Source: a virus. From it: a DNA stretch of 64,000 nt. The stretch covers positions 1 through 64,000 of the IMG/VR virus record IMGVR_UViG_3300046376_000226. One strand, given 5' to 3'. A program made the translations under genes and the position numbers. The notes under the pieces are model-generated. The model saw nothing but the letters and a program-made list of their open reading frames with translations, was not told the DNA's origin and searched no databases. Below are positions 3,129 through 64,000 of this stretch, in pieces (the first letter of the stretch is position 1; the number at the start of each line of letters is the position of its first letter).

Positions 3129-3137
3129 CAGTGTGCT

Positions 3138-15169: not shown

Positions 15170-15179
15170 CTTTTGGAGT

Positions 15180-15191: not shown

Positions 15192-15197
15192 TTTGGA

Positions 15198-16125: not shown

Positions 16126-16550
16126 TTTCTGGGCTTTACCTTTTGAATAACCTCTTTGACTGCCTTGCGTTCCGCAGGCATTAGCGCGGCCAGGTGCCGC
16201 GCCCGCCGCGCCGCCCTGGCCTCGGCCCTGGCTGCTGCCCGAGTCGCCGGATCTCCGGCTACCCCGAGCGGGTCCACATAGAGGCTGGGATCAGGTCGTT
16301 CCTCCAGAGTTTCCAGGGCTAGGAATTCTGCCCGAGTCGGCACCGGATACCGGTCCAAATGTTTTTGCAGGAACTCCCCTATATAGATACTGTCCGCACC
16401 TTCGCGCAGTCGCTTGATAGTGTCTTTTTTGAGACTGCAAGTGACATAGCCCCAGGCATCTTTATCCGGTTTGCCCTTCCTGCCTGCCCCCAGGCGTGAG
16501 CCGCCTCTCCCGTTTTTCCGTTTCTTGATCATTTTTAATTTTTTGGCCAT
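16122..16550 (-). CDS. Basic AT-hook-like DNA-binding protein
   Basis: 142 residues. The N-terminus is strongly basic with NGRGGSRLGAGRKGKP, the GGxRxGAGRK motif common in phage DNA-binding proteins, and the C-terminus is an Ala/Arg helix. Start overlaps the upstream frame by about 90 bp. Likely a small DNA-binding or regulatory protein. Confidence 0.6.
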   Translation of the reverse strand: MAKKLKMIKKRKNGRGGSRLGAGRKGKPDKDAWGYVTCSLKKDTIKRLREGADSIYIGEFLQKHLDRYPVPTRAEFLALETLEERPDPSLYVDPLGVAGDPATRAAARAEARAARRARHLAALMPAERKAVKEVIQKVKPRK

Positions 16551-25349: not shown

Positions 25350-25388
25350 AGCTTAAGGCCAGGCGTTTGAATGTCAAGGGCTAATCAA
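25350..25388 (-). promoter_or_regulatory. Promoter-like module 5
   Basis: Minus strand: TTTGATTAGCCC, TTGACA (25377-25372), 16-bp spacer, TAAGCT, ATG 6 bp later. The module's TGA ends the PP-loop enzyme gene. Confidence 0.55.
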
Positions 25389-41536: not shown

Positions 41537-42934
41537 TCAAGTTTTAATGATGAATTGCACTGCCAGATAAGGCGGCATGTTGTTATGCGGGGTGCCGCTC
41601 CCGGTGTTAGCCATAGTGATATTAGCCTGGCTCGAGCTGGTTGTAACTAGGCCAGCCCCAGCCACCGCTGCGGCAACGCCGCCGCTTCCGAGCGCTCCGG
41701 TCGGGACGGTGTGAGTATGGCCGGGATCAGTCAGTTGGTGGGCATGGGCCGCTAGCTCAGCGACAATCAGGGCATGAGTGGCCTCGCCTCCGGTTACGGC
41801 TATCGGGAAAGAGTTGCTTTGTCCCAAGGGGAACCTGCCTCTGAAATCGGGCACGTTAAAAGTGGTGCTCCCGTCACCAGCGCCCCAGGTAGTCGAGATA
41901 GCCGCGAACAGGGCAGGAAAACTCGTGCGGCTTAAAGCTGCGCCGTTACAGGCCACCCAGCCTGCTGGAGGCGAGGCAGCCCCGTACATCTTGATCGTGC
42001 CCGGGAGATCCGAGCCGGGTACTCCTTGCGGTCCGGCCGGTCCGGCAGGCCCGACTGCTCCTTGGGCTCCTCTAGGGCCGGTGCCGCTCACGATCGCTCC
42101 GGTCGGGATCACGGTCCCTGGCGGTTCAGCTCCGGCATAATTGAGGTTTAAGAGGTTGAGCGAGTTGGCTGTGAGGTCAACGGACTGGATACTGAAATAA
42201 TTGCCGCCAACCGGCCCAGCCATAAACACAACGAGCCCCGCCGCAAACGCATCCGCTGCGACCACAAAGGCGGTCCCGTTCGTAGTAGGCACCGTGAAAG
42301 CCTGCGCTAAGGTCGTGTAAGCACTGGATCCGGATACCCCTTGCGGCCCGGGCGGCCCTTGCGGTCCCTGCGGTCCTTGGCCGCCGGTTGGCCCGCGCAA
42401 ATTCGCCGGAGAAACCATAGCTCCGGCGCCAATCAAGGTGCCGACTGGCGCATTAGCCGGATCACCAGAATTAACCAGATTAACGTGTAAGGAGTTTGGC
42501 GCGCCGCCTACGCAGGTAAAGGTGCCAGCATTCGGGATATAGACTAAGAGCCCCGCCTTCATCCAGGATGAGTCGGTGACCTGCGTGGTCACCGTTAAGC
42601 CGAGGGCAGGGACACTGAATTGATTCGAAAGAAAGCTAAACGGGGTTTGACCCGGCGGCCCTTGCGGCCCTTGACCGCCTGCTTGACCTGGGGGGCCAAT
42701 CTGACCGGCTGGCCCTGGCAACCCCATTCCAGGCGGCCCTTGTGGCCCTGGGCCACCTCGCAATTGATCAATCCACATCCAAGCTGGAAGCGCACCGGGA
42801 GGGGCGTCGGGTTGAGTCGCACGCCAGAAACCGCCGTCATCGCGCGTGTAAGCGAAGTCGCCGGTAAAGACCACGATCTGATCGATCGCAGGAAGCTGAG
42901 TGTAGGTTGGGAATCCGCCTAAGAAGTTACTCAA
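41537..42934 (-). CDS. Collagen-like tail fibre with tail-collar domain
   Basis: 465 residues. Two blocks of Gly-x-y repeats (GPQGPPGMGLPGPAGQ and GPTGGQGPQGPQGPPGP) separate small beta domains. The C-terminus, from about residue 310, is the phage tail-collar domain: GTIKMYGAASPPAGWVACNG, NVPDFRGRFPLGQ, and a NNMPPYLAVQFIIKT ending. Such proteins form trimeric fibres that contact the host. Collagen-like stretches act as stalks. Confidence 0.93.
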   Translation of the reverse strand: MSNFLGGFPTYTQLPAIDQIVVFTGDFAYTRDDGGFWRATQPDAPPGALPAWMWIDQLRGGPGPQGPPGMGLPGPAGQIGPPGQAGGQGPQGPPGQTPFSFLSNQFSVPALGLTVTTQVTDSSWMKAGLLVYIPNAGTFTCVGGAPNSLHVNLVNSGDPANAPVGTLIGAGAMVSPANLRGPTGGQGPQGPQGPPGPQGVSGSSAYTTLAQAFTVPTTNGTAFVVAADAFAAGLVVFMAGPVGGNYFSIQSVDLTANSLNLLNLNYAGAEPPGTVIPTGAIVSGTGPRGAQGAVGPAGPAGPQGVPGSDLPGTIKMYGAASPPAGWVACNGAALSRTSFPALFAAISTTWGAGDGSTTFNVPDFRGRFPLGQSNSFPIAVTGGEATHALIVAELAAHAHQLTDPGHTHTVPTGALGSGGVAAAVAGAGLVTTSSSQANITMANTGSGTPHNNMPPYLAVQFIIKT

Positions 42935-44899: not shown

Positions 44900-47800
44900 T
44901 TATGCTGCTTCCTGCATTTCTTCAACCGGTAAAGAGGGCAGCTTACCCTGCTTAACCTTGTAAACTAAGGCATGCATGGCATCCAGATAATCAGCCTTGG
45001 GCCGCTGCGGTGAGCCTGCCATCTTGAATAAATCCTTAATGTCAAACCAGAGTAGCGCCTGCTTATCGGCATTGGTCAGGTGGACCCCGGCAGCTTTTAG
45101 CTTTTCACCTGCGCGTCGCATAATGTCGCGCCACCATTCCCGTTCAGTGCCGTTGCGTGGCGCGTCAGCTAGCTTAGTCGTACCCTCATCCAGCTTCTTA
45201 GCCGTCAGGTTCTCCGGAGTCTTGAACGATTCGTCGTAGCTTCCCTCCACTCCTGGGCTCTGTTGATAAAGCCTGTGCCGCTGCCGAGCCCACTTGTAAA
45301 TCTCTGGCGCCAGGGCTCGCGCCGTTGGCCGGTCCAGCTTGCCCTCTGGTACTGCCATCAGCGCATCTAGTTCCTTGGATATCGTCTTGGCCTGATCCTC
45401 ATCGATAGAAACCAACCCCGAATTGAGCACATCCCGAAGCTGGCTCAGATGGGATTTAACGACCTCGCCTTTCTCGATCCGGTCTTTGCGGGTAGCCTCA
45501 TCGCTGAACTTAAACATGTTCCCCGCCATCAGGTTCATGTTCCGGCTGAACCACAGGTCCATAGTGGTGGGATCGTAGTCACCGTTGAGGTTAGAAAAGA
45601 ATGCCCCGATCTTGGCACCCAGCATCATAGCGCCGTTAACCGTGTGGTGCGCTAGTTCACCCCCTACGTCTAAACCAGGATACTGCTTAGCCAGCTCGCC
45701 CACGGTCATGCGCTTCATGAGCATCTTGCGCAGTTTGTCGCTGCCTAGCCCTGGATTATTCTCATCCCCGTGCCAGAGCTTATTGATCTTGGCGAAGTTC
45801 TCTTCCATCTGCTCGGCTTTAAGCCCACCCCCGAAGATCTCGCGCGACTCTGGCAGGCGGCCCGTCTTAACGAAGTGATGGTACGCTGCCCAGGTGCTCT
45901 CGGTATTAGGGAATACATCCTGACCTTGGCTAGTGATAGCCCACGCTAGTTTGAAGGCTAGGTCATGATCCTTATCCGTTGCGATCTTGGGTGCAATCTC
46001 GCCAGCTTTCTTGAGAGCCTTCCGAATGGTGCGACTGTACCAGCCAAAAGCATGGCTGGGCTTGCCGCCAGTCGTAGTGCCAGCCAGCGAGTGCATAACA
46101 TCGTGAACGACCGCATCCGATGCGTGCTCGCGATGCTCCTCATTTTCGTAATCGAGCTTCGGGTTATTGGCATCGTAGTACTCACCAATCTGCTCGTTCT
46201 TAAGCTTGCCTGGGAAGCTCCTAGCTCCAGTCAAGTGAGCATGCATGCTTTGTGGGTGAATGTCCGGATTCTGCTTAACCCAGGCTTTGCTAATTTTGTT
46301 TAGCCGGACAGAGGCAGCCTGCTCTTTTTTGTCTTCCGGAGTCTCGATTTTATCCCGATCAATGGCTGCTGTACGCATTGCTTCAGCCTTGATCGCCTTT
46401 TCTTCGTCCGCTTCGGCCTTAGTCTTCTTGACTTTGCCCGGAGCGGGCTGCTCCTCGGCCTCGGGCTCCTCGGCTTCTTCTTCCGCTCCAGGTTTTGCTC
46501 CAGGTTTAGTACCGGCCGTCTCGGGCAGCGGCTCGCCAGGGGCAGGTGGTGCGGCTTTCTGAGGCTTGGGCTTGGCAGCCTCAGTTTCGGTTGAAGTCGG
46601 TTTTTCAGGGACTAATCGGTTACGCCCCAGATCTTCGGCTGCTAAGCTTTCGTCTTCTGTCTTACCGACCTGTTTAGCCGATTTGGCGATTTGATGCGCT
46701 TCGTCACGATCAACAAATCGCCCTTTATTAGTGGTGAAACCGACTTCGTAGTTATTAGGATCTTTTCTGCGCTCAGCGGCTACAGCTGCGTCATAATGAG
46801 TAAAACCCTCGGTGATTTTCCCGGTCGGGACATGATGGACGGCAGCCGCCCGGATTGCCTCAGGTTGTTCCGGTGAGGGTTGCGGCTTCGCGGAAGGCGC
46901 TGCTGGCGGGGTTTTTGTCGGCGCGGCAGCAGGAGGTTCGTCATCCTGGTCTGGGGGCGGCGTTGCCGGGGGTGCCGCAGTAGTCGATACTGTCTGTCCA
47001 GCTAAATCATCGGGATCGCCCTGGGGTTTAACTAAACCGCCTTTAGCAAAGCCAGCAGGCTTAGTGGGTAACGGCACCTCGGCAGCCTTTTGCCGGTACT
47101 TTTCGACATCGATCTTTCCGTTAATCCATTGCTCACGCAGATTGTGCTTCATCTGCGTATGCTCTTCCGGTGTGATCGCTTCCGGGTCGTCCTCGTACGG
47201 TGTCACTAACCCACCACTACCTCCAACAAAGCGGTACTCATCCGGATCCTCACCCATGGCTTCTAAGCGCCTGTGCGCTTCGGCTTCATCGATCTTATGA
47301 TCAGAGAAATCGCGCTCGATCTTATTGATCTGGGCGTTGTCCTGATAGGTGTGATGCAACGAGGTAGCAATCGGTACATCCGGACGCCCTTGTTCAGAGG
47401 TGTTTTGGATTGCCCTGGTCAGGTTCTGGAATTCTTTTCCGGGCCGGATGGTCTCCGGGAAATAACGTTCATCCTGGTGGTGCGCCACGATTAAGCCGGT
47501 CTTAAAACTGCGGACACTGGGTTCCAGTACCCGATTGCGCCAGCCTGGGTCGTGCTGTTCGATATGATGGCGCATCCGGTTGGTTTCGCCCTCCGGAGTA
47601 ATCAAAGTGCCGTTGGCTTTAGCTAGCTCCCGCAGTTTCTGCGCGTCCTCGTGGCCCGCAAAAGCCATCGTGTTATTAATTACCGTGTTAATGAAGTCGG
47701 CTTCCCGTCGCTTCAATTTGTACGGAACATGGCTCGGGTCAGGTATATTAGGCAGATCCTCGGTACCCAGCGCATGCCCGCGCCCGGTCGCGGTATGACC

Positions 47801-50527
47801 GGCATTGAGATTAGAATAGTAGCCTTCCAGGTCGTTATAGAACTTGTTTCCCAGGCTCTTGTACGGCGTTTTCAAGCCCAGGGCGGCCAGCTTCTCGTTT
47901 AAATGCCCGAAATTATTAGCCAGGATATTAGTCGAGATGCCCTGGATATAGGATTGATGCGGTTCACCGGCTTTTCTGGGCAGGCTGACGCCTACGGAGG
48001 TAGGAATAAAACTGTGTCCCACTAGCTGTCCTACCGTAGTTCCCATCAGACGCGCCTCCGGGGTGTGTTCTTCGTACTGGACAGTGCGACTTTCGCGGGT
48101 GGGATAACGCTGAGCTTCTTTAGGTGCCGACAGATAACTGATATGCATCGGGCGCTTCTCAGCGATCGCTTGCTCGGCTTGGGCTAACATCTGGCGCTGC
48201 GGACCATGCTTGCCTTCCGGTAAGCCTCCTAGGAGCTGGTCATGGATCGGGTCGCCTTCAACGAAGTGCTCGCCTTTTATCGCGCCGTCTTTTTGTTTCT
48301 TAACACGCGGATCATCCTCGGAAACTAAGCGGGCGTGTTCTTTAACGGCTTCGGGTAATTTCGTTCCGGGGCTAAGCGCTTTAAATGCTGGCGGGTTAGC
48401 TTGGCCGTGGGTGCTACCTGGTGGCGCTCCTCCGGTGTAGATTCCACCCTTGGCTGGCGCAGTTGGCTGTGCGGTCGTAGCCGGTGGTACCGGTGCTTTA
48501 GCCGGTGGTACCGGCGCTTTAGCTGCCGCAATCGGCTTCTTTGGCGCTGGTGCTGAAGGAGCAGGGAGGAGCGTCTTCGGTTTAGCTGGCGCAACCGGCT
48601 GGACTTTCCCGAGTTCCGGTTTTTGCAGGAGCGAAAGCTCAACTGTCTTGGCGCTAGGCTGAGCAGGAAGAGAAGAAGGTGCCGCTGGCGGGGGCAGTAA
48701 GGACTGCGGCCTGGCGGCCGGGGCAGCCGGAGCTGGTAGCTGGGCTGACTGGGAAGCACCCGGAAGGATATTCTGGGTATCGGTAATGGCTCGCGGCTGA
48801 CTAGATCCCCGCGTGATTAGTTTAGTTGTTAACGGGGTTTGTTCTTCCTCTTCCTCTTCCTCGGTTTGCGCGGCTTGAGCTTGCGGTGTTCTGCCGCGAA
48901 AAGGCCAGGGAATCCCGCCAAACCAACCACCTTGGCTTGGAGCGGCTTCCGGTGCCGCGCTAATATGGGCTGTTCCTCCGCTAGCGCCCAGTGGGACCTC
49001 TGTCTGTGCAGGCGCAGGCGCATTGGTTTCACTAGGAACCATGGGCACTAACGTGTCTCCACCTTTGCCTTTACCTTTACCTTCACCACCGCCTTTGCCG
49101 GTGAGTTCAATGTCAGGGATTGGGTAGGGCTTACCATCACCGCCGACTATCTGGTAGCTGACAGCATGGTTATCGCTAAATCCCATGTCTTTGGCCGCAC
49201 CGTAGGTTAGGTCTAATACTTTACCTGGGTGCCTCCCTAGAGAGCCCTGGATATCGACAATCGGGAACTTGTGGATCTTGCCGTTGGGATCCGGTAGTTC
49301 GACATGAGCAGATTGAATCTGCCGGATGATCGCTTTGGCTTCAGGCGTATCCAATGCGTCATAACCGCCCTTCGAATTTAGCTGAGCAAAATGGCCGAAG
49401 GTCTTTTCCAGGACATCTACTGGCACGGCAACCGCCTTTAAATTTGGGTTCCGCGTGTTGACTCCACCAAAGAAGCCCCGCCCGTTATCATCAGCATCGA
49501 TACTACCGTCGTAATTGAGTCCAAAACTGGTGGCGGTACCGTAGATCCTCTTCCCGTCAATTGTGGTTGGCGCCTGATCTCCGGTGCCGGGTGATGGCAG
49601 TTGAATCTTGGGGGACTTTGCGCCTGTTTCACTACCGCTTGTTTGCGGCTCGCCACCGCCTTTCCGTCGATTGAATTCGGCAATAACTCTCGGGTCATCA
49701 AGCCGGTCGGTATCTAAGCTGCGCGCAATTTCGGATTTAAGCAGCGTGTCATTCAGGTTATCCTGCTCGCTGGGCTTGGCTGGCTCTGCCTTGGGCTTGG
49801 GTGCTGCCCCTGAAAGCGTCTTGGGCTCCTGACCTGAAACAATTGCTTGAGCGGCCCCTGGACTGTGTCCCTGATTAATCAGACCTCTCAGCTGCTCCTC
49901 GGTATCGGGCTGATCCTCGGCTATTTTCGGATAGACGGTCGGTTGCTGCTGGGGAGACTGTTGCTGCGGAGACTGCTGCTGGGGCGGCTGGGGCGGCGGC
50001 AACTCCCGACTCGCCATAGAGACCGGGGGCGCTGGCTGCTGTTGCTGGGGCTGCTGGTTGACCTTAGCTTCTGGTGCGTTAGGGGCAAAAACCTTTGGTT
50101 GATCTCCTTTCGCCTTCTCGACTGGAACTTCTGGCGCGTCTGGAGCAAAAGTTTTGGTTTCTGACTTCTCGACTGGGACCGCTGATGCGTCTGGAGCAAA
50201 AACTTTTCCACTGGGAGGAGGTTCTTGTGTTTTTGGCGGAAGCTCCTCGCGAGAGTGTAACTGGAAGGGATTCCCAGAGCGCGAAGGGTCTGGCGGCAAC
50301 GTCCATGGAATTTTTGATATGGCCGCCACGGGATCGGGATCACCCAATGCCAGCTGTTTGACGCTACCTCCCTCTTCGTATCCACGAGCGCCCTGGTTCA
50401 ATTGGTCCAGTTTCTTTACACCTATGCGCCTGACAGCATCCCGTTTTATTACGTACTCACCGGGCGTCAGCATCGCCGGAACGGTGTCAGTAGGACCAGG
50501 AGCGGGAGGTGGGGGGCGTGTCGGCAT
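44900..50527 (-). CDS. Giant virion polyvalent-type protein (1875 residues)
   Basis: Starts with MLTPGEYVIKRDAVRRIGVK, a motif found near the N-terminus of large phage virion proteins. Then come Pro/Gln-rich stretches, a domain near residue 330 of the type YDGSIDADDNGRGFFGGVNT ... NPNLKAVAVPVDVLEKTFG (a double-psi-barrel-like hydrolase family), a long helical middle (SYLSAPKEAQRYPTRESRTV), and a C-terminal half with the helical 'large polyvalent protein' pattern (VVHDVMHSLAGTTTGG, FNLAW-type segments). Phages inject such proteins with their DNA, where they protect it or act on the host. The GGLV/GG motifs are shared with the two neighbouring large proteins. Confidence 0.8.
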   Translation of the reverse strand: MPTRPPPPAPGPTDTVPAMLTPGEYVIKRDAVRRIGVKKLDQLNQGARGYEEGGSVKQLALGDPDPVAAISKIPWTLPPDPSRSGNPFQLHSREELPPKTQEPPPSGKVFAPDASAVPVEKSETKTFAPDAPEVPVEKAKGDQPKVFAPNAPEAKVNQQPQQQQPAPPVSMASRELPPPQPPQQQSPQQQSPQQQPTVYPKIAEDQPDTEEQLRGLINQGHSPGAAQAIVSGQEPKTLSGAAPKPKAEPAKPSEQDNLNDTLLKSEIARSLDTDRLDDPRVIAEFNRRKGGGEPQTSGSETGAKSPKIQLPSPGTGDQAPTTIDGKRIYGTATSFGLNYDGSIDADDNGRGFFGGVNTRNPNLKAVAVPVDVLEKTFGHFAQLNSKGGYDALDTPEAKAIIRQIQSAHVELPDPNGKIHKFPIVDIQGSLGRHPGKVLDLTYGAAKDMGFSDNHAVSYQIVGGDGKPYPIPDIELTGKGGGEGKGKGKGGDTLVPMVPSETNAPAPAQTEVPLGASGGTAHISAAPEAAPSQGGWFGGIPWPFRGRTPQAQAAQTEEEEEEEQTPLTTKLITRGSSQPRAITDTQNILPGASQSAQLPAPAAPAARPQSLLPPPAAPSSLPAQPSAKTVELSLLQKPELGKVQPVAPAKPKTLLPAPSAPAPKKPIAAAKAPVPPAKAPVPPATTAQPTAPAKGGIYTGGAPPGSTHGQANPPAFKALSPGTKLPEAVKEHARLVSEDDPRVKKQKDGAIKGEHFVEGDPIHDQLLGGLPEGKHGPQRQMLAQAEQAIAEKRPMHISYLSAPKEAQRYPTRESRTVQYEEHTPEARLMGTTVGQLVGHSFIPTSVGVSLPRKAGEPHQSYIQGISTNILANNFGHLNEKLAALGLKTPYKSLGNKFYNDLEGYYSNLNAGHTATGRGHALGTEDLPNIPDPSHVPYKLKRREADFINTVINNTMAFAGHEDAQKLRELAKANGTLITPEGETNRMRHHIEQHDPGWRNRVLEPSVRSFKTGLIVAHHQDERYFPETIRPGKEFQNLTRAIQNTSEQGRPDVPIATSLHHTYQDNAQINKIERDFSDHKIDEAEAHRRLEAMGEDPDEYRFVGGSGGLVTPYEDDPEAITPEEHTQMKHNLREQWINGKIDVEKYRQKAAEVPLPTKPAGFAKGGLVKPQGDPDDLAGQTVSTTAAPPATPPPDQDDEPPAAAPTKTPPAAPSAKPQPSPEQPEAIRAAAVHHVPTGKITEGFTHYDAAVAAERRKDPNNYEVGFTTNKGRFVDRDEAHQIAKSAKQVGKTEDESLAAEDLGRNRLVPEKPTSTETEAAKPKPQKAAPPAPGEPLPETAGTKPGAKPGAEEEAEEPEAEEQPAPGKVKKTKAEADEEKAIKAEAMRTAAIDRDKIETPEDKKEQAASVRLNKISKAWVKQNPDIHPQSMHAHLTGARSFPGKLKNEQIGEYYDANNPKLDYENEEHREHASDAVVHDVMHSLAGTTTGGKPSHAFGWYSRTIRKALKKAGEIAPKIATDKDHDLAFKLAWAITSQGQDVFPNTESTWAAYHHFVKTGRLPESREIFGGGLKAEQMEENFAKINKLWHGDENNPGLGSDKLRKMLMKRMTVGELAKQYPGLDVGGELAHHTVNGAMMLGAKIGAFFSNLNGDYDPTTMDLWFSRNMNLMAGNMFKFSDEATRKDRIEKGEVVKSHLSQLRDVLNSGLVSIDEDQAKTISKELDALMAVPEGKLDRPTARALAPEIYKWARQRHRLYQQSPGVEGSYDESFKTPENLTAKKLDEGTTKLADAPRNGTEREWWRDIMRRAGEKLKAAGVHLTNADKQALLWFDIKDLFKMAGSPQRPKADYLDAMHALVYKVKQGKLPSLPVEEMQEAA

Positions 50528-53536: not shown

Positions 53537-54883
53537 CTAGACCAAGCCTTCCATGCGCAATCTGTAATAGAGGTCGTTTGGATTTTCCTGTTGCCCTTCT
53601 CCACGCTGTGATTGGGACTGGTTTAACGTCACTTCTTTCGCGGGAGGTGGAGCCGGGATCGCTGATGTCTGCATCTGCCACGGTTTAACTGACTGGGCGT
53701 ATTGCTGGGCGGCAGCCGTTAAGCCTGAGGCTAGCCCGCCAATTACGCCAGCCGCTTGGACTCTAGGATTTTGCCCTCCGCTCCACGAGGTATTAGCGGC
53801 ATTCGCTGCGTCAATTGATGGTGAAGCAGTGGCCACTCCTCCGGTCGTTTGCGGTGCCTGCGGAGTGGTTGGGGTTGGAGGCCCAACTTGTAAAGACTGG
53901 GTTCGGTCGGCGTAACTCTGGCCAGCCGGTCCTGGGTTTGTGGCATTAATGCCTGCCAGAGAGAGAGCCCTTCTGCGAGCCTCTTCAGGCTGGTCATCGC
54001 CCACATAACCTCCGGAGTCCATTCCAACTGGGGGTACTAACCCACCAGAGCGCATCTTTATTGGCGGCCCTCCTGCAATCGCGCTTTGTAGTTGGCTGTG
54101 AAAGTCTGCGATATCCGCAGGCGTAGCGGAACTGGGGTCACCGCCAAAATGAGCAAATATGGCCTTACCAGCATCGGCTAATGCGTTGGTGTGAGCCGAC
54201 AAAAAATCTGGTGCGGCGGGAGGCTGGCCTGGCTGGGTAATGGGTACAGCAGGTGGCGCTCCTGGCGCGGCGGGTGCGTGTACCCTGGCAAAAGCTTGTC
54301 CAGGCTGATAAGGCACATAATCCACCCCGCCAGAAGCGAGGGGTTGAGGAGTCCCGCCCCCGCTCGGGGGTAGCGGTGTGGCAGCCTGGAAGACTCCCGG
54401 CATCTGGGGTCCCTCGGAACCGGGACCGGCCTTCAGGAAACCGGGCTGGAATGGGCCGAAGGTGGGTGAACCCACGTTTTGAACCCCGCCAATGCTGGCC
54501 TGGCCGCTCGGGATTGGGTTGTAGACCGGGTAACCGCCATAGCGACCCAGTCCTACCGCGCTAAGACCAGCTGCACCCAGATTGGTTAGTCCAGCATCGG
54601 GACCGCCCACACCGTAGGGCGAATTTGTGCTGCCGCCTTGGCTATTACCACCGCTGCCCTGCGCATTGAGCCCCGCTAGATTCGTTCCGCCCCGCGCATT
54701 AATCAGCCCCGCTAGATTACTCGGATCATTTTGGTTGTTGGCGCCCTGGGCAATGGTGGGAGCAATACTACTGATGAAGGTGCCGACCTGGTCCAAGGGA
54801 ACATTCTGGGCTTGTAACGCCTGCGCTACACCCGGCCCGAAGGTGCTCGCAACGCTGTTCCAATCGCTAAAACTAGCTGCCAT
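53537..54883 (-). CDS. Gly/Pro-rich virion protein
   Basis: 448 residues; helical N-terminus (FGPGVAQALQAQNVPLDQVG) and long Gly/Ala/Gln/Pro-rich stretches. GGLVPPVGMDSGGYVGDDQP is a version of the GGLV...GG motif. It overlaps the TfuA gene stop region by 11 bp. Probable minor virion protein. Confidence 0.65.
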   Translation of the reverse strand: MAASFSDWNSVASTFGPGVAQALQAQNVPLDQVGTFISSIAPTIAQGANNQNDPSNLAGLINARGGTNLAGLNAQGSGGNSQGGSTNSPYGVGGPDAGLTNLGAAGLSAVGLGRYGGYPVYNPIPSGQASIGGVQNVGSPTFGPFQPGFLKAGPGSEGPQMPGVFQAATPLPPSGGGTPQPLASGGVDYVPYQPGQAFARVHAPAAPGAPPAVPITQPGQPPAAPDFLSAHTNALADAGKAIFAHFGGDPSSATPADIADFHSQLQSAIAGGPPIKMRSGGLVPPVGMDSGGYVGDDQPEEARRRALSLAGINATNPGPAGQSYADRTQSLQVGPPTPTTPQAPQTTGGVATASPSIDAANAANTSWSGGQNPRVQAAGVIGGLASGLTAAAQQYAQSVKPWQMQTSAIPAPPPAKEVTLNQSQSQRGEGQQENPNDLYYRLRMEGLV

Positions 54884-56180
54884 GGGTTGACTCCTTTGCC
54901 GCGTTAAGTCTTTCTAAGGCTACCCCTAGCTCGATGCAGTTGCTGAAACCGGTATCCAGGAGGTATTCTTCCGGATTGCAGTGCAGTTCTAGCCCCTCAC
55001 GTTCAAAATGCTCAGTTAGTATTTCAAAAGCGCCTCGCTCGAGGTTAACGCTGAGCCAATCGTCAACGCCGCTCTCTTTGATCTTCTTTTCAGTTGTAAC
55101 CGCTTGGGTCGCCCAGTAATCAAAGGCTTGATGGGTGCGCAAATAATCAATGATTTGCTGGCTATTGCGCCGGTACATCTTAGCCACGGTATTACTATGT
55201 TGTAATTTGCGGATGCGAGCATTCTGGATAATCAGCCGGTTGTACTCGCCCTGGGTCCAGCCATTAGCTGAAAGGTAAGAGGAAAACTCGCCCGGGGTTT
55301 CGATACCGCTGCGCTGTTGGAACCGGATATTCTCGCGCTCGACTTCCTCAATCGAGACGGTCACTAGCAGCAGATCGCAAAGCATCAGCGCCAGTTCCTG
55401 GTTAGAGCTGTCCCAGCAGATCCGCTCATACTCGGGGTGGTGAAGCAGCACGTAAGCGTCGATGTGCTGTTGGGGAATCGGTTCGTCGTTGACCTCAATC
55501 CTGCGATCCCGTTCATAGAGCGCCTGGAAAAAACGGGAGAGGTGGTCTGGAGTGGGCTTAAGCTTGGGCTCTGGTTTCAGTTCGCGGAAATTTTCCAGGA
55601 GCGCAGTAGCGTCAATGGCCTTCTGAGGTATGAGCGGGAAATCGGGACCACCCCAAAGCTGTTCACAGACCTCCTTAGTCCGCTCTGTGTAATTGATCTT
55701 CTGCGCTGCGGCAAGGAACGCTTCGGCCTTGTTATCTTTGACTGCGTTGACCCCGGCCCTGATATCGACCAATGGAACAGTGAAACATTTATAGTCTCCA
55801 CTGGGTAATTCAGCATACGAAACAGCCACCTCCCCGTCATCTTCGGTTACACCGTCTCGATACCATTCGTAGATCTGGCCCACACCGATCATTCCCAGCC
55901 AATCCAACTCCGATGCGCGTAAAGCGCCCATCGATGCCGCGCCATAGATGGCCTTGACGCCCGGATACTGGAGCGCATAGACGATCTCCTTATGCCAGGG
56001 GGATAAATTTTCCCTGAACGAACCATCCACCAGAAGGATATGCGTAGGATTCAGGTTAACTACGTCGGTGACGATGTCCCCTTGTCGGGCAGGTCGACGG
56101 TAGATTGCCTCAGGAAGGATCTCGCGTGCCCGTGTTATAGGCAGCGAAGGGCCCAGATAGACTAGGACTTTCTCACTCAT
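54873..56180 (-). CDS. TfuA-like core protein
   Basis: 435 residues. The TfuA domain occupies the N-terminal half: VLVYLGPSLPITRAREILPE, then THILLVDGSFRENLSPWHKE and IYGAASMGALRASELDWLGM. TfuA partners YcaO enzymes in installing thioamides or azolines on peptides. The C-terminal 200 residues are extra and helical. The start overlaps the YcaO stop by 8 bp, so the two are cotranslated. Finding TfuA among virion genes is unusual. Confidence 0.9.
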   Translation of the reverse strand: MSEKVLVYLGPSLPITRAREILPEAIYRRPARQGDIVTDVVNLNPTHILLVDGSFRENLSPWHKEIVYALQYPGVKAIYGAASMGALRASELDWLGMIGVGQIYEWYRDGVTEDDGEVAVSYAELPSGDYKCFTVPLVDIRAGVNAVKDNKAEAFLAAAQKINYTERTKEVCEQLWGGPDFPLIPQKAIDATALLENFRELKPEPKLKPTPDHLSRFFQALYERDRRIEVNDEPIPQQHIDAYVLLHHPEYERICWDSSNQELALMLCDLLLVTVSIEEVERENIRFQQRSGIETPGEFSSYLSANGWTQGEYNRLIIQNARIRKLQHSNTVAKMYRRNSQQIIDYLRTHQAFDYWATQAVTTEKKIKESGVDDWLSVNLERGAFEILTEHFEREGLELHCNPEEYLLDTGFSNCIELGVALERLNAAKESTHGS

Positions 56181-57390
56181 TTAAAACCGCCTTTTCGGAC
56201 AGTGCTTTGATTTTGCGTTCCGCGTAAGAAAGGCATCGCAGGCCAGGTCGCCAATGGTCGAACCGGAACGGCTCGCACTGGGGCGAGAACACGCGCACCA
56301 CGTGAACCGCGCCGTCTAGGTACGAACCCATCTCTTTAACGAAGACCTCCGAGATGCCGTAGCCCCTGATTAGCTTAAGCAGGTAACGCAATTCGTTTTT
56401 AACATCCGGGAAAGAAACGGTGCGGTAATCAGACAGGGGTGATCCAACGGGCAGCTCCTGAAACAGCTCATGCAACTTGGCTTGATTCATGCGCTTCATT
56501 AACAAGAACTGCCGCCGGAACAAATCATCGCGCGCGCCTGATATGTAACAGCACCTCGCCTGGGCTGCCTCGGTGATAGCGCGGATAGCCGCTACCTCGG
56601 CGTTCAGGTGGGCGCCGTAGCCGCCGAATGTACCGGCACAGCGGCCGCTTAAGTCCAGGATAATGGCCGAAAATACCGGGATATTGTAATCGGTAGTGAT
56701 ATCGAAAAGGTGCAGGCGCAGATCGGCGGACTCGATCTTGCGAATACAGCTCTCTATCTTCTCTGATACGGTCCCTAGCGGGGTTCGGGTAAGGAGCATT
56801 CCGCTGTCCAGGAGGAACTGGTTCAGCGTCCAGGCATCCCGCTCGATTACTTCGTACAGACCGGCCAGGATTGCGTCTTGGACTGAGCCCCCGCTGGCTA
56901 ACCCATTAGAACCCATCTGAACATACATCAGGGCTTGACCTTTAATTCTGGTGACTAACCAGAGCAGGTCGCTCGGAACTAACTTAACTACGCCGTTCTG
57001 AATGTTAGTTGCTTCTTCCCAGGCGATCGGGGTCAGCTCACTTAAGACACTAGACCGGGTGGGGAAACAGTCCTCCAGTGCTAAGCGCTCTGCTTGGGGT
57101 AGTTCAGCGGCTCGAGCGATCCGGAAGGCGCCATAGGGATGTTCCCCTGCATGGAACTCGATTGCTTCCATGATCGCGCCGCACCGGGAATAAGCTGGGG
57201 CGAGTCCCTTGCCAGAGTGAATGGAGACGGTCTCCGAAAGCGCCCGCACGCAGCTATGGACCGGCAGACCCACCGCATCTAACCCGGTCAGATCCGCTAC
57301 CCTGGAAATGCCGAAGTCCTTAAGCAAGTCTGTGCGCGTTACCGCATTGACTGCCTGGGCGGTTGCTTCACGTAGTTCTTTGCGGGTCAT
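56173..57390 (-). CDS. ycaO: YcaO-family cyclodehydratase
   Basis: 405 residues. The ATP site motifs of YcaO are present: HSGKGLAPAYSRCGAIMEAI at about 58-77, SNGLASGG at 161-168 followed by GLYEVIERDAW at 177-187, and AITEAAQARCCYISGARDD at about 271-289. YcaO enzymes phosphorylate peptide backbone amides to make azolines (with Cys, Ser, Thr) or, with TfuA, thioamides. No short precursor peptide is obvious nearby; substrates could be a virion protein. Overlaps TfuA and, by 4 bp, the next upstream gene. Confidence 0.92.
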   Translation of the reverse strand: MTRKELREATAQAVNAVTRTDLLKDFGISRVADLTGLDAVGLPVHSCVRALSETVSIHSGKGLAPAYSRCGAIMEAIEFHAGEHPYGAFRIARAAELPQAERLALEDCFPTRSSVLSELTPIAWEEATNIQNGVVKLVPSDLLWLVTRIKGQALMYVQMGSNGLASGGSVQDAILAGLYEVIERDAWTLNQFLLDSGMLLTRTPLGTVSEKIESCIRKIESADLRLHLFDITTDYNIPVFSAIILDLSGRCAGTFGGYGAHLNAEVAAIRAITEAAQARCCYISGARDDLFRRQFLLMKRMNQAKLHELFQELPVGSPLSDYRTVSFPDVKNELRYLLKLIRGYGISEVFVKEMGSYLDGAVHVVRVFSPQCEPFRFDHWRPGLRCLSYAERKIKALSEKAVLNE

Positions 57391-58874
57391 ATGGTTGAGG
57401 CTCTGAAGAATTCAGCAATAAGGACTCGGTCATAGATGGCTCTGTCCATGGCCAGCCTGATAAGGCCGCACAAGCGTTCCGCTCGTGAGGAGCGCAATAT
57501 ATTGTCCGCTACCCAGCGTCCGAATTTCAGGTAGAGCGCCCTTAGTAGCCACGGGCAGCGCTTCGAGTAGAGCCAGCTTCGGAACATCACCCAGCGAGGG
57601 TTATCTGCTCCGTAGCACCTCCTAGCCACCCAGCAGCTTATGGCCGCCGCCGCTGCTGCTGCCGATGCGACGGCTCCTGCTGCTCCCACTCCCGCTGAGA
57701 CCATGCCCGCTTGCTGCTGGGCTGCTAACTGCTGTTGTTGCGCATTTATTTGGGCCTGATTAAATGCAATCCCATTCATGGTGGCGTAATTGGCTTGTTG
57801 AAAACTGTTATAGGCTCCGGCCTGCCCCAGTTCTGTTTGGGCCAGGTTGGTGCCCCCTAATCCGAATGGGCGCTTTTGAAATAGTTGACCGGCAGTCTGC
57901 ATGTTCAGCATGAGATTTTGGGCCTGCTGATTTTGCAGGTTGCCATAGATATTAGCCATCTGGGCGGTATCCATGGCCATCTGTTCGGTAGCTCCTTGGG
58001 CTTGCCCGTAGAGCTGGCCGCCTAAGCTTCCTACGTTTGCGCCTCCCTGGTAGAGCTGACCGGCTCCCTGGAGTTGCTGGCCGCCTAGACCGATGGTCTG
58101 GCCACCGGCCCCGATCGTTTGAGCGCCCAGACCCTGGAGCTGGCCTGCCTGGCCGAGCATAGAAGCGTACTGGTTAATGTCGCCCATCGCTTCACCCCGG
58201 CGCTGCATCCCGTACTGGATGGTGTTAAGGCCCAGCTGACGGGCAGCAGCAGCTTGCCCAGCCATGCCCTGGCCTAAGGATGCTGCTCCCAGTGCTCCGG
58301 CGCTCGAGCCCAGGCCCGCGAGCATCATCTGTTGCTGGACCTGGGGGTCCATGGGTTGCTGCAAGAGTTGTTGCCCTAATTGATAGGGGATCTGGGCGCT
58401 TCCGGCTAATTGCCCTCCTAGACCTGCGATTTGGCCGCCAAGCCCTGCCTGTTGCTGGCCCATACCGATCAGAGGCTGAGCGAGTCCGGCCTGGGTTGAT
58501 CCCAGGTTATACATAGGCTGAACGGCTTGATTCACTGTCTGGGCCGCGTTACGGATCCCCTGGATATCGGCGGTATTGGTGACTCCTTGGCGACCAGCGA
58601 TCGTGTTAGCCAGGCCCGACATGATAGCCTGCTGGCCAGCGGTGCCCGCACCAACCGCCCCAGTCTGCTGACCGAGATTGGACTGCCATTGGTTGTAGGC
58701 GTTCTGTAGTGCCGGATACCGGTTAGCAAAGTCTGCGTCACTTAACGCGTAAGAGGATATGTCACCCCCGATAGCCAGCTGGTTGAGCCCCATTCCCGAT
58801 TGATAATCAAAGCCCGGGGGCGCGCCTTGCGCTTTAAACTGAGTTGAACCGCCGCCGCCACCACCACCGCCCAT
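57387..58874 (-). CDS. Gly/Gln/Ala-rich virion protein with conserved C-terminal domain
   Basis: 495 residues. It begins with nine Gly and continues in Gln/Ala/Gly-rich helices (QQAGLGGQIAGLGGQLAGSA). The C-terminal 85 residues (ISCWVARRCYGADNPRWVMF, then KRCPWLLRALYLKFGRWVAD) match the conserved tail of many phage tail and virion proteins. Several Cys lie there. TAATG couples the upstream gene to it. As the neighbour of YcaO it is a candidate substrate, but this is inference. Confidence 0.65.
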   Translation of the reverse strand: MGGGGGGGGSTQFKAQGAPPGFDYQSGMGLNQLAIGGDISSYALSDADFANRYPALQNAYNQWQSNLGQQTGAVGAGTAGQQAIMSGLANTIAGRQGVTNTADIQGIRNAAQTVNQAVQPMYNLGSTQAGLAQPLIGMGQQQAGLGGQIAGLGGQLAGSAQIPYQLGQQLLQQPMDPQVQQQMMLAGLGSSAGALGAASLGQGMAGQAAAARQLGLNTIQYGMQRRGEAMGDINQYASMLGQAGQLQGLGAQTIGAGGQTIGLGGQQLQGAGQLYQGGANVGSLGGQLYGQAQGATEQMAMDTAQMANIYGNLQNQQAQNLMLNMQTAGQLFQKRPFGLGGTNLAQTELGQAGAYNSFQQANYATMNGIAFNQAQINAQQQQLAAQQQAGMVSAGVGAAGAVASAAAAAAAISCWVARRCYGADNPRWVMFRSWLYSKRCPWLLRALYLKFGRWVADNILRSSRAERLCGLIRLAMDRAIYDRVLIAEFFRASTI

Positions 58875-59278
58875 TAGTTTACCTCCTCGTCGTAGATGTA
58901 GGCGGTTTCAGGTGCTCGTTTGAGCCGGATCCGCCTCAGGTTTTTCGGGCCGAGCGCCTCGGCTTTTTCGCATAACAGGAACAAGGGGTTCCCCGTCATG
59001 CGCTTAAACTCGGTAATCAGACTCCGGGTTAATTTCAGGAAGACGCGCGGGCTCATCTTATCGGGATGAAGCGCCGGGTAGACTACCAGTTGCGGGATCG
59101 TATGAGCGTAGCCGCGCAGCTGGCCGTGATAAAACACGAGGTAGATCGGGAACATGCGCAACAGCTCTTTCCCGGTCAGCTCGCGCGCCATCTGGTCCAG
59201 GTTCCAGTGCTGCAAATCTTTCTCGTTTTCACAGCGAATCAGTGAAATACCGGCTTTATCAGAGTCTGGGGAGTTCAT
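58874..59278 (-). CDS. Hypothetical protein of the virion operon
   Basis: 134 residues from MNSPDSDKAGISLIRCENEK; the start is fixed by ATGA overlap (59275-59278). YLVFYHGQLRGYAHTIPQLV and SLITEFKRMTGNPLFLLCEK suggest an acetyltransferase-like alpha/beta fold, seen in some phage virion operons, but no CoA-binding loop is evident. Confidence 0.5.
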   Translation of the reverse strand: MNSPDSDKAGISLIRCENEKDLQHWNLDQMARELTGKELLRMFPIYLVFYHGQLRGYAHTIPQLVVYPALHPDKMSPRVFLKLTRSLITEFKRMTGNPLFLLCEKAEALGPKNLRRIRLKRAPETAYIYDEEVN

Positions 59279-61407
59279 GTTAGTCTTCCGTCTGCTGTGA
59301 TGATGGCCCATAACAAATCCCCTCTGGAGATGCCTGCCCCGAAGACAAGCACCACAGCGGTCCCGGCCGCGTTCACAAATCCTGAAAGAGTCACCTGGGT
59401 TTTTGAGTCAACGGTCGCGACGGTCGCCCCGGGCAGGATCCCTAGCCCGCTAACCGGCATCCCGGGCTTGATCTGGGTAGTGTCCGGAATGGCCGTAATC
59501 TTCTTGGTGCCGAAAGTGAGGCCGACCGCCAGAGCTGTCCCGGTAGCCGCGACTGAAATCGTGATGGTCTTATCCATCGAGAAAGTGAGCGCTACCCCGA
59601 TCGCTAGGCCGTGCGTAAAGCCGCTTAGAATCACAGAGTTTGCCCCTGTGTTAACCTGGACCACGGTGGTTCCCGCCCCGATCCCGTTGCCGACCGCCTC
59701 CATGCCGACCGTGATATTGGCAATATCCGCGCTCGGGATGTTACTGATCTTGGTACTCCCATCGATGGTGCCAGTGGTGTTAACGGTCACGCCGCCAGTC
59801 GGAGCGCTCGCGACCGTGGCTCCGACCGGGATCCCGGCCCCGGTGACCGGTGCTCCTACTACGATGCCGGAGCTAACGCCCTCAAGAGTGATCGTGACCG
59901 AGCCATTATTAATATCGCCCGTAGTGGTAATCAGGGAGGTGGTGCCACTGGTAGTCAGGACGGGCGGAAAATTAGTGAAGGTCAGCCCGACATTCGCCTG
60001 GCTGATGGTGGCAGCCGCCGAAATAGTCAGCGAAGTCGACGAGAGAATTTTAACGACCGTGGCCCCGGTCGGAATACCGTTCCCGCTTACCCCAGCACCG
60101 ACGTCGATCCCGGGGGTAGCCACCAGGGTAATAGTCGTAGTGCTATTTAAGGTGCCGCTGGTATTAATGACCGCGCCGCCGGAGTCGGTGATACCCCGTC
60201 TGCTCGCCGCTAAGTTCGGGATCAGGATATCAAAGTTGGTGAACATATCAGTCACCAACCCGGCCGCCTGGGTCTGGTAACTGTACGGAGTGACCACCGG
60301 ATGCAGGAGCGCCATCCGGCGAGGGAAAATAAAGGTGGCAGCCCAATTATTATCCTGGGAAGCGAAAAACTGGACCGGTGCGCCGAAAGTTGACGATTGA
60401 TAAGCGAAGGTCGTGAAATAGTAGCGAGTCAGGATCTCCAGATCGTCTGCGAACGCTGGGACCGAGAGATAGGTTGGGCTAAGGCTGGCTTCTAGCTTGA
60501 TCCCGGTGATCGCTAAAGCGTTCCCGGCGGTTGCCAGCAAGTTCAGGTTCTGGCTAGTGCCAGCGTTTAGGCCCCCTAGCCATTTATTAAGGTTGCCGCT
60601 GGTGATCCGGAAGTTGGCGCCGACCCCAAAAGGGAATCCTACGTAGAGCCCGGTTACTCCTTCGCCAAAGTGCCAGGTACCGCCGCTAGGGAAGGCGGGA
60701 ATAGCAGGGACCGTGATCCAGGTCCACTGATTGGCCGTTGTCAGGGTAAAAGCGGCGGTGTAACTCTCGTCGCGTCCGCTGCTAGCCAGGTAGACCGAAT
60801 AAGTGCCCGGGGTAGTGCCATAGGCCCAAAAAGATAAGGACATCTTCTGCCCCCGGAGAGCCACGATGTCTGAGCCTTCGAAGAGATGCTCGTGCGAGTA
60901 AAGATCGGTGGCTAGCAGAGTAGTTACCACCCCGGGTCCGACCGTATAATTGATGGCGGTAGGGATGTTATCATTGTTGGGGCCTGCCGCCGGACCGTTA
61001 ATCGAGGAGATAGCCAAAATGTTAACGAGATTGGCTTGAGCAAAGCTCATGTCGTAAGCGGGTCCCCCGCCGGCCGGCACAGCAATGGCGGCACCGGTCT
61101 GTTGCACCTGGTAAACGCAATTCTTGACGTAATTCTTGATGGTCTTAACCGGGAACATCTGCGGCTCGTATTCGCCGGTTGCGGTATTCCAGAAATACCA
61201 GACGCCATCCATGGCGATCGGGCCCTGGTCACTGGTGGGCAGGTCTGAACCCGGTGGCAAAATTAAGCCCAGCAAAAAGTTGCCCTCGATATAGCCGGTC
61301 ATGAGCTGGACGGCTTGCTGGAAAGTTTCGTCCATGTCGCCCTTGAACCCTTCCGGGAAAGGCGCAATCGCGATCGTAAGCGGGATCTGAATAGCGGGGG
61401 TAGGCAT
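59275..61407 (-). CDS. Large tail-fibre-like protein with GIPxGATV repeats
   Basis: 710 residues. The N-terminus MPTPAIQIPLTIAIAPFPEG is common for phage tail proteins, followed by a carbohydrate-binding-like beta domain (SLSFWAYGTTPGTYSVYLAS). From about residue 410 come at least six repeats with the pattern (V/G)x-GxGIPxGATV (for example SGNGIPTGATVVKI and VTGAGIPVGATVAS). Such repeats form beta structures in fibres. Probable receptor-binding or fibre protein. Confidence 0.7.
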   Translation of the reverse strand: MPTPAIQIPLTIAIAPFPEGFKGDMDETFQQAVQLMTGYIEGNFLLGLILPPGSDLPTSDQGPIAMDGVWYFWNTATGEYEPQMFPVKTIKNYVKNCVYQVQQTGAAIAVPAGGGPAYDMSFAQANLVNILAISSINGPAAGPNNDNIPTAINYTVGPGVVTTLLATDLYSHEHLFEGSDIVALRGQKMSLSFWAYGTTPGTYSVYLASSGRDESYTAAFTLTTANQWTWITVPAIPAFPSGGTWHFGEGVTGLYVGFPFGVGANFRITSGNLNKWLGGLNAGTSQNLNLLATAGNALAITGIKLEASLSPTYLSVPAFADDLEILTRYYFTTFAYQSSTFGAPVQFFASQDNNWAATFIFPRRMALLHPVVTPYSYQTQAAGLVTDMFTNFDILIPNLAASRRGITDSGGAVINTSGTLNSTTTITLVATPGIDVGAGVSGNGIPTGATVVKILSSTSLTISAAATISQANVGLTFTNFPPVLTTSGTTSLITTTGDINNGSVTITLEGVSSGIVVGAPVTGAGIPVGATVASAPTGGVTVNTTGTIDGSTKISNIPSADIANITVGMEAVGNGIGAGTTVVQVNTGANSVILSGFTHGLAIGVALTFSMDKTITISVAATGTALAVGLTFGTKKITAIPDTTQIKPGMPVSGLGILPGATVATVDSKTQVTLSGFVNAAGTAVVLVFGAGISRGDLLWAIITADGRLT

Positions 61408-61409
61408 TT

Positions 61410-61601
61410 TTACCAGTGGTGCTCGGGCCGGGAGATAAGGAGGAGCTGCGGACCGAATGGGTTGGACTGGAAATTGGGCTGGGTGATTAGGACGTCATAG
61501 TTAAGCTCGCGCGAGCGGGTGTGATAAATCGGCGGCATCCCGGTCTGGAGGGTCAAATTGACCTGAGGGAATGGCGGGGTGGTTGTTGTGCTGGTGCTCA
61601 T
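61410..61601 (-). CDS. Small structural-operon protein
   Basis: 63 residues, Thr/Pro-rich N-terminus and beta-type middle (YDVLITQPNFQSNPFGPQLL). Lies 2 bp from both neighbours. Function unknown. Confidence 0.5.
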   Translation of the reverse strand: MSTSTTTTPPFPQVNLTLQTGMPPIYHTRSRELNYDVLITQPNFQSNPFGPQLLLISRPEHHW

Positions 61602-61603: not shown

Positions 61604-62242
61604 TTAGCCACCTGAAATCAGTTCCACTGGGGCCGTGCCTGGGGCCCGGGTTTTAGTGAGCGCGAAAATCATCTGGTTCGAATTGGAGCCGCACACGAAC
61701 CTCGCCTGGAAATTGCCGAAATAGCCGGGGTTTAAGAGGTAAGCCTGGGCCTGATTAGCGTTGGTTAGCCAGTTCCAGGGCGACGGCGGCCCAGTGCTGA
61801 CGCCGCCAGCCGTTCGAATCGCTGAGATTATCAAGTCATCGCTGTAACCGGTTGGTAATACCGCAGTCAGCGACTGGGCCGCACCTGCCGGGGTAGTATT
61901 GGTTAAGGCTGACCCATCAAGGGTAAAATCGTAGCCTGTGATATCCAAGAGGCCGATCTGATAACCGCGCGCTAAATCGGTCGCGAAAGTGACCGTGCAA
62001 GCTCCGGCGGCTTTAGAGGTTGTGCCCCAGGCGGCCAGGCTCTTGCCCCCTGTAGCAATAGCGGCAATCGGCTGGTAAGTGTTGCCTAAAGTGTCAGTGC
62101 AACCCGTGGCTACCGTTGCGGTGGTAGCTGAAGTCAGAAATGCGATTAAAACATCGCCTTTACCCACCGGGCTCGTAAAAGCGTAAGGGGGAAATTGATT
62201 GCTGCTAAGGAGCGCACTGATCTGGCTTTGTGGGACTGGCAT
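61604..62242 (-). CDS. Structural protein with Ig-like domain
   Basis: 212 residues. CTDTLGNTYQPIAAIATGG with repeated beta strands is the same type of Ig-like domain as the N-terminus of the 38910-40826 protein. Start overlaps the upstream stop (TAATG). Likely a virion surface or adhesion protein. Confidence 0.65.
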   Translation of the reverse strand: MPVPQSQISALLSSNQFPPYAFTSPVGKGDVLIAFLTSATTATVATGCTDTLGNTYQPIAAIATGGKSLAAWGTTSKAAGACTVTFATDLARGYQIGLLDITGYDFTLDGSALTNTTPAGAAQSLTAVLPTGYSDDLIISAIRTAGGVSTGPPSPWNWLTNANQAQAYLLNPGYFGNFQARFVCGSNSNQMIFALTKTRAPGTAPVELISGG

Positions 62243-64000
62243 TACGCGGTTGCCTCCACAACGATGTGCGGGGTGTTAGTCTCATCAGGCGTGCAGAAGC
62301 CTTGGGGGCTCTGGAGCTGGCGATCGTAAAAGAACTTTAGCGAGCGTATCCCCAGCCGACCCTGCCATTGGATCATGATCTGAAAGCCTTTATCGATCCC
62401 GTCCAGCCGCCCGATCTCGGTGCAAGCCGCTTCGTCCGGGCTTTCGTGGACTACGAATTCCTGGGTGCGCAAATGCCGGACTTGGCGCCGGTAATTCTCA
62501 AACTCGGTGGTCCTGCCCTGGGCAACGTAGTAAAGCTTAGTTAGAGCGTCCGGGTTGCCCCAGGGGCCGATATCGGCTCGTAACGTAGTGGAAAACAGGG
62601 GCTGATAATTCCCGCCTAGCCCGGTGACAAAGACCTGGATCGGGACGATTCCCTTCAGGTTCACCAGCATGATCTCAGCGAAAACGAACCGGTAATAATC
62701 GTCAGTGGCTAAGACAAATGCCCGGGTCTCAAAGGAGCAGGCAATCGAGGTCTCAACCTCTGAGATCTGGTTGGGCATGTAATTTTCGTACAGGTGGATA
62801 TAAGCCTGAGGCGGTAGATCAGTCTCTGGCTGGGGTGAGGGGCTTTCCCCATCCTGCAAAAGGAGATATCCGCTGCTGTAAGCCAGCTCGTAGTTATGCT
62901 GGGTGCCCTTGACGATAGGGGAGGTAAACTGGACCGGGTAAGAACCGACCCAGACGCCACTCCAACACATTCCGGCGGTGTTATTGAGTTTCTCAGCGAT
63001 CCCGGCATCCATGATCCAGGTATGCCGGTTAAGAGGATAGCTAGCGGGCCAGCCGACCATGAGCACATTTTCAAAGACCCCTAAACAGGCTCCGGTGATA
63101 TCGGCCGCCGCCAGATATTTAGAGCGCTGCATCTCTCCATCGGCAGTGAGAATCACTGTCGTCAGGTTCTGGGTCAGGGCCCGGTCAAAGGAGATCAGGC
63201 CCCGGGCCGTCAAAAACCAGATCATCCCGTGCAGATAGGCGATGCCCCAGGGCGCGATTAGTCCGATCTCCAGGTTCACATCGGTCTGGAAACCCTGGGT
63301 TGTCTGCCACTGGGTCCGGTCCTGGATATAGCTCTGGAGCGTGTGCATCGAGGACTCGGTAAAGACGATTACGCCCTGGAACGGAGCGCACCAGAGGTTT
63401 ACGACCGCTCGAGGGAACCGAAACCCGGTTTGTTCTGCGAGATAGGTTTCTTCCTGGAAAGATTGGGGATAGAGCAGGTCACTGGCAAAGACCAGGTTAC
63501 CGACTGCGACCCAGACACGGTTATCCTGCCAGACCATGGCGGTGCCGATCGGTATTGGTTTAACCGGGCTGCCGGTCACATAATTTTTATCGACAACCCC
63601 GCTGGAGAAATCGCTCGTATCCCAGTAGCAAGGGCTCGATACGCCGTCCTGCATGAGCACGATATTCTTTGGCTGGGGCAGGACCTTGATGAAATTATTG
63701 CTGTCGTATTCGATGGCCTGCTCGCCGTTGACGAACCAGATCCGGCGCGCATCGGAACGGAAAGTCACCCCATCTAGTTGGGTCCAATCGGTGAAAGGGT
63801 ACGGGGCCCAATAGATTTTGCCGTCGATAGCCACCATCTCGTAGTTGCGGTCATCGATAGTCCTGACCCAGAAATGTCCCTGGGCGTGACGGCCGCAGAA
63901 GCTTTTTACCCGGCGTTTAGCTGGCCGGGTCTGAGCCACGCCGCCCCGGTTAATGGTGTTGACGCCCCAGGCGTAAGTATTGGGCGCCAGATCGGTCGGG
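62242..64000 (-). CDS. Virion structural protein (N-terminus beyond window)
   Basis: The frame is open to the window edge: upstream of the GTG at 63939 it continues as LAPNTYAWGVNTINRGGVAQ, so the gene starts outside and the visible part is 585 residues. The NRGG-x-x-Q-T-R-P motif with beta-rich sequence throughout (WVAVGNLVFASDLLYPQSFQ) fits large phage virion proteins of the tail or head-completion type. Precise role not recognised. Confidence 0.75.
   Translation of the reverse strand, partial: PTDLAPNTYAWGVNTINRGGVAQTRPAKRRVKSFCGRHAQGHFWVRTIDDRNYEMVAIDGKIYWAPYPFTDWTQLDGVTFRSDARRIWFVNGEQAIEYDSNNFIKVLPQPKNIVLMQDGVSSPCYWDTSDFSSGVVDKNYVTGSPVKPIPIGTAMVWQDNRVWVAVGNLVFASDLLYPQSFQEETYLAEQTGFRFPRAVVNLWCAPFQGVIVFTESSMHTLQSYIQDRTQWQTTQGFQTDVNLEIGLIAPWGIAYLHGMIWFLTARGLISFDRALTQNLTTVILTADGEMQRSKYLAAADITGACLGVFENVLMVGWPASYPLNRHTWIMDAGIAEKLNNTAGMCWSGVWVGSYPVQFTSPIVKGTQHNYELAYSSGYLLLQDGESPSPQPETDLPPQAYIHLYENYMPNQISEVETSIACSFETRAFVLATDDYYRFVFAEIMLVNLKGIVPIQVFVTGLGGNYQPLFSTTLRADIGPWGNPDALTKLYYVAQGRTTEFENYRRQVRHLRTQEFVVHESPDEAACTEIGRLDGIDKGFQIMIQWQGRLGIRSLKFFYDRQLQSPQGFCTPDETNTPHIVVEATA

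Follow-up and report, generated by a model that had tools for sequence, protein, structure and literature searches.

Backbone thioamides are known in only a few proteins, McrA and uL16 among them, and in some ribosomally synthesized and post-translationally modified peptides (RiPPs). In methanogens, a YcaO-TfuA pair is responsible for the thioglycine of McrA (PMC5589413). In the current view, TfuA relays sulfide equivalents that come from a thiocarboxylated ThiS-like carrier, and YcaO, at the expense of ATP, introduces the sulfur into the backbone (PMC13063428; PMC8120280). Such a pair is encoded by a soil phage in the window analysed here, which comprises bases 1-64,000 of the 74,555-base IMG/VR virus record IMGVR_UViG_3300046376_000226. 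The two genes lie directly behind the gene for a putative virion protein (57387-58874) that ends in a cysteine-containing tail. Among related phages, as read from their sequences, the exchanged unit is a variant of this tail together with YcaO and TfuA.

The phage pair resembles that of methanogens, represented by MJ1094 (6pe3), MaTfuA (6xp8) and the curated models TIGR03266 and NF033432. Both pairs belong to the same two families and have adjacent, overlapping genes, and these curated models are the ones on which the phage proteins score best. The substrate of the methanogen enzymes is a protein, not a peptide, and the same is proposed for the phage enzymes. In contrast, the phage proteins miss both equivalog cut-offs (178.6 bits against 365 for YcaO; 137.5 against 235.2 for TfuA), form a separate tree branch, carry an extra 265-residue domain in TfuA and occur in a virus without McrA. 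Bacterial gene clusters for thioamidated RiPPs (Azospirillum, Minicystis, Acidobacteria and the Acidimicrobiales sequence L148) are the nearest bacterial tree neighbours of the phage pairs, and their long TfuA proteins align with those of the phages over the full length (27-34%). The phages differ from these clusters in that scans of their records revealed neither a Nif11 precursor nor ThiS and in that the partner gene adjoining the pair encodes a virion protein. E. coli YcaO, which thioamidates uL16, is a precedent for a YcaO that acts on a large protein. However, it operates without TfuA, and the phage YcaO scores weakly on NF040716 (32.9 bits against 700).

The YcaO and TfuA enzymes

YcaO (56173-57390, minus strand, 405 residues) is predicted to be an ATP-dependent, amide-backbone-activating enzyme of the TfuA-associated type. 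It matches Pfam PF02624 over its full length (profile positions 1-324 of 325) with 191.7 bits against a cut-off of 25.7 (E 2.7e-56). TfuA (54873-56180, minus strand, 435 residues) is of the long form and matches PF07812 with 107.6 bits against a cut-off of 30 (E 4.2e-31). These scores uphold the family assignments of an earlier, sequence-only reading of this DNA. The closest solved structures are 6pe3 for YcaO (E 3e-30) and the M. acetivorans protein 6xp8 for TfuA (E 6e-24). The GKG, E-A-I-E, E-x-x-ERD and R-A-x-TE-x-x-Q-x-R blocks of YcaO align with MJ1094 and, conservative changes aside, recur in all 12 aligned phage YcaOs. We take the conserved Glu/Arg blocks to be the ATP-binding blocks. 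The loss of ATP-site residues for which the earlier reading had allowed is not seen on this alignment.

The AlphaFold model of TfuA (pLDDT 90.6) has two parts. Residues 1-168 form the TfuA domain, which superimposes on 6xp8 (TMt 0.77), and residues from about 170 to 435 form a helical domain. This C-terminal domain of about 265 residues (54873-55670, minus strand) has no match in the PDB and is common to bacterial long TfuAs, for example those of Azospirillum and Minicystis. In close pairs, the YcaO ratio of nonsynonymous to synonymous substitution rates (dN/dS) is about 0.05-0.08, no higher than the value for the neighbouring structural protein; that of TfuA is 0.08-0.11 where computable. Both proteins are under strong purifying selection. 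These low ratios and the conserved gene order in related phages argue that the pair is not present by chance, and the sequences make it almost certain that both are active enzymes.

Several features bear on the chemistry. The best NCBIfam model for YcaO is the McrA-type TIGR03266, whose 178.6 bits compare with 100.8 bits for the azoline-type (SagD/TOMM) model TIGR03604, where the cut-off of 219.25 is missed. The C-terminal PxPxP of azoline-forming YcaOs is not present in the window's YcaO, and Pfam identifies no E1-like partner among the overlapping neighbours of the pair. The product is probably a thioamide rather than an azoline, in line with the thioamide formation for which the earlier reading noted that such pairs are known.

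Distribution in phages and exchange with the cysteine tail

The pair is a lineage trait, not a one-off. Twenty-seven distinct YcaO-positive IMG/VR phages were collected, including that of the window, and in all of them YcaO lies directly 3' of a homolog or analog of the 57387-58874 protein gene. TfuA accompanies YcaO in every phage contig that extends far enough. A comparison with other phages carrying the pair had been suggested from the sequence alone, and its outcome is this conserved position behind a virion gene. Relatives with 61-83% YcaO identity have the entire gene order in common with the window. A first scan of genome contigs found no relatives; alignments retrieved more distant ones, with 29-38% identity. 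Some phages whose structural protein is 27-33% identical have no YcaO, TfuA or cysteine tail in the stretch examined, and the trait is therefore accessory.

The window's YcaO and TfuA proteins have no match in 50,697 cultured-phage records, in agreement with the earlier remark that no common phage example is known. A divergent phage YcaO yields one weak match there, to an E. coli-type YcaO. No published link of YcaO-TfuA to phages was found in the open-access papers searched, a scope outside which most subscription papers fall, and the enzymes apparently occur here in an undescribed setting. Variations on the arrangement include an HNH-endonuclease-like open reading frame (ORF), recognized by eye, between the tail gene and YcaO of a close relative (L002:7505-8044). 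Two distant YcaO-positive phages have small Cys-rich ORFs between YcaO and TfuA (L068:10130-10387, zinc-ribbon-like, and L071:10169-10474). The most distant tail-less carrier, L026, has a phage-type integrase-like ORF (by eye) 3' of the block at 14949-16142, which suggests a temperate relative.

The protein upstream of YcaO (57387-58874, minus strand, 495 residues) is A/G/Q-rich and may be of the ejection type. It has no family match of its own, and the model of its body is of low confidence (pLDDT 47.7). The tail alone folds, and its predicted structure has no PDB match. This C-terminal domain (SCWVARRCYG...; 57390-57635, minus strand, Cys codon at 57635) carries the signature 'CWVARxxYG' of a diverged CFI-box-CTERM (NF041770), likewise a C-terminal Cys domain, and the similarity covers nearly the whole profile. 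The best phage tail, that of one relative, reaches 25 bits (E 1.2e-5) against a cut-off of 40, and the window's own tail has no match to the model. We know of no established function for the CFI-box-CTERM domain. An Ala/Gly-rich hydrophobic segment precedes the tail, as would fit insertion of the protein into a membrane, or its passage across one, during ejection. HMO-2011-type phages likewise have a large protein with a Cys tail at its end, encoded in a block comparable to that of the window, but they have no YcaO or TfuA.

YcaO-positive and YcaO-negative tails separate almost perfectly. A tree of 96 tails, whose bodies differ widely, requires two changes of YcaO label (gains or losses), compared to 21 when the labels are shuffled. 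Glu at position C+5 is found in 7 of 24 YcaO-positive and 67 of 72 YcaO-negative tails, and two or more Cys residues in 19 of 24 and 12 of 72, counts that are not phylogenetically independent. Independent pairs for the extra Cys or the Glu loss are too few for a paired test.

The exchange can be followed in the phages L289 (YcaO-positive) and L294 (YcaO-negative), whose virion proteins have 93% amino acid identity in the body and 29% in the tail. The two are homologous in DNA (83.6%) up to a point that lies 96 bp short of the tail Cys in each. Homology (88%) returns with the gene that follows TfuA in L289 and beyond the tail stop in L294. The same pattern is repeated by L225 and L301, which are YcaO-negative, and by L239, which carries a whole YcaO, so that a single misassembly is unlikely. 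Variant tail, YcaO and TfuA, on this sequence comparison, move as one unit.

Proposed substrate and rival explanations

Because the tail and the enzymes switch as one cassette and YcaO-positive tails form a distinct group, the tail is the best substrate candidate. The 57387-58874 protein is probably the substrate, and the chances that the tail domain in particular is the target appear about even. The virion protein, YcaO and TfuA would be made late and with coupled translation. TfuA would liberate the sulfide carried by a ThiS-type thiocarboxylate protein of the host, and YcaO, with ATP, would activate an amide of the C-terminal domain's backbone and exchange its oxygen for sulfur (+16 Da). 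The altered domain would then be packaged and would act during or after entry. This whole sequence of events, with thioamidation of the upstream protein's C-terminal domain using host-supplied sulfur, could as well be right as wrong. The host is the likely donor because no ThiS occurs in 13 phage records, a result that discounts a phage-encoded carrier. The window also encodes a PP-loop family protein of the phosphoadenosine phosphosulfate (PAPS) reductase type (25385-26344, minus strand, PF01507). Only two of 13 YcaO-positive records contain such a gene, so it is not linked to the pair and was rejected as a sulfur source.

The sequence-only reading had already proposed the tail as a substrate, and this proposal is plausible. 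The cassette exchange and the distinct YcaO-positive tails support it, while several observations weigh against it. A survey by DNA pattern, independent of YcaO, found at least 120 tail stretches, and downstream sequence was checked in the first 80 loci. There, 53 had at least 2.5 kb downstream, and 50 of these are without YcaO. The tail is present in 23 of the 27 YcaO-positive phages, and in the other four none was found anywhere in the contig examined, with positive controls detected. Hence the tail and YcaO can each exist without the other, and the Cys tail was rejected as a diagnostic marker of YcaO. The virion status of the 57387-58874 protein is judged from its position. In L289, YcaO appears to be frameshifted (2137-3145, 119 and 291 residues) next to a whole TfuA, through sequencing error or decay. 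Finally, tail and YcaO are adjacent, so that their joint movement could be due to linkage alone.

The origins of the pair bear on this last point. In a tree of concatenated YcaO and TfuA, the phages form two groups, of which the window's contains phages only and the other (L049, L239 and L330) lies beside bacterial L148. The L148 locus reads as a RiPP-like cluster, in which several small ORFs are Nif11-like and other genes resemble transporters. Both phage groups sit behind the same tail domain. The concatenated set rejects a single phage clade (p-AU 0.025), whereas YcaO alone does not (p-AU 0.246), a further point against the proposal. Two origins, which YcaO alone does not show, are therefore likely rather than certain. 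If they hold, linkage alone does not explain why both pairs are found behind the same tail domain. A tentative reading, to which we give somewhat less than even chances, is that the peptide-thioamidation enzymes of bacteria were taken up by phages on two or more occasions to tailor the C-terminal domain of a virion protein that is ejected, with tail and enzymes forming a mobile cassette exchanged between phages.

Other targets must be weighed against the tail. The pair could act elsewhere in the same virion protein, or on a different protein encoded in the block, while the tail hitch-hikes beside YcaO. The tail-less phages that retain YcaO-TfuA fit such an arrangement, co-transfer is what adjacency alone predicts, and the virion-protein bodies in the window's clade, and in several relatives, share a conserved 'R-x-[FY]-G-[LIV]-x-G' motif. 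Yet in the swap pair the gene that flanks YcaO-TfuA at its far end, although equally adjacent, is unswitched, and the body is 93% identical. The 'R-x-[FY]-G-[LIV]' motif is missing in the YcaO-positive phages L026, L239, L254 and L289 and was rejected as a thioglycine-like site. This explanation is unlikely. A host target would also account for tail-less carriers: late-expressed enzymes could modify a host protein, perhaps a ribosomal one, so that the infected cell is taken over or protected, since a YcaO is able to thioamidate a ribosomal protein (PMC13063428). The uL16-type YcaOs are reported without a nearby TfuA (PMC13063428), however, and the separation of YcaO-positive from YcaO-negative tails is not predicted by a host target, which makes this quite unlikely.

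It is very unlikely that the pair acts on an unrecognised precursor to make a thioamide peptide, such as one with an antibacterial or immunity role, and the earlier suggestion of a modified peptide made during infection gains little support. The nearest bacterial relatives do adjoin Nif11-type precursors and transporters. Nevertheless, no Nif11 precursor scores above cut-off in 17 phage records, by a scan aimed at that type (non-Nif11 precursors elsewhere in the genomes lie outside its reach) whose control detected the precursor of the L133 genome and missed that of L135. There is also no intergenic gap for a precursor beside YcaO-TfuA. A conserved ORF of 57-69 residues in the window's clade (61410-61601, minus strand; QTGMPPIY..RSRELIYDAL...NPFGPQLL.LSRPNHHW) was considered as a weak candidate. 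It is absent from distant YcaO-positive phages, its end resembles the C-terminus of a 312-residue protein in L041, and it was rejected as a precursor; it is probably a small virion protein. That YcaO and TfuA are structural or ejected proteins, or remnants, without catalysis is most improbable. They do lie among virion genes, but their catalytic blocks are intact and their dN/dS values are 0.05-0.11.

The surrounding gene block and implications

The pair belongs to a compact late-type block that runs on the minus strand from 63939 to 44900. The overlaps of 4-11 bp cited earlier as signs of translational coupling are confirmed: 4 bp between the 57387-58874 gene and YcaO, 8 bp between YcaO and TfuA, and 11 bp between TfuA and the next gene. 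This downstream gene (53537-54883) encodes a Pro/Gly-rich protein of 448 residues, and its place in the gene order is kept in relatives. Farther along is a giant protein of 1875 residues (44900-50527). Upstream, a virion structural protein gene (62242-63939, with an upstream start in frame at 64068) has homologs that match PHROG 3287, 'virion structural protein'. Together with a Tail Collar/collagen fibre protein (41537-42934), these matches mean that the description of the block as a virion operon is supported, not proven.

Further minus-strand genes lie between those for the structural and tail-bearing proteins. The fibre-like protein at 59275-61407 matches PHROG 6427, of unknown function (E 1.7e-11). 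It has 710 residues, compared to about 435-500 in L002 and L005, with extra repeat-like Gly/Thr/Val-rich stretches toward its C-terminus. The gene at 58874-59311 encodes a conserved protein of 145 residues. In YcaO-less relatives, this position, ahead of a virion protein of the same kind, is occupied by DUF6445/2-oxoglutarate (2OG)-oxygenase-like and GNAT genes (L107:13769-14365, L121:13831-14427 and L109:13307-13759), which perhaps encode other protein-modifying enzymes.

If the phage pair does act on the tail, a virus that installs a thioamide in its own particle would represent a new class of virion modification. This would explain why two enzymes are kept under strong selection, and it would provide a testable model for the effect of a thioamide on a protein that crosses the cell envelope. 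The cassette also offers a lead on the widespread and unexplained CFI-like C-terminal domain.

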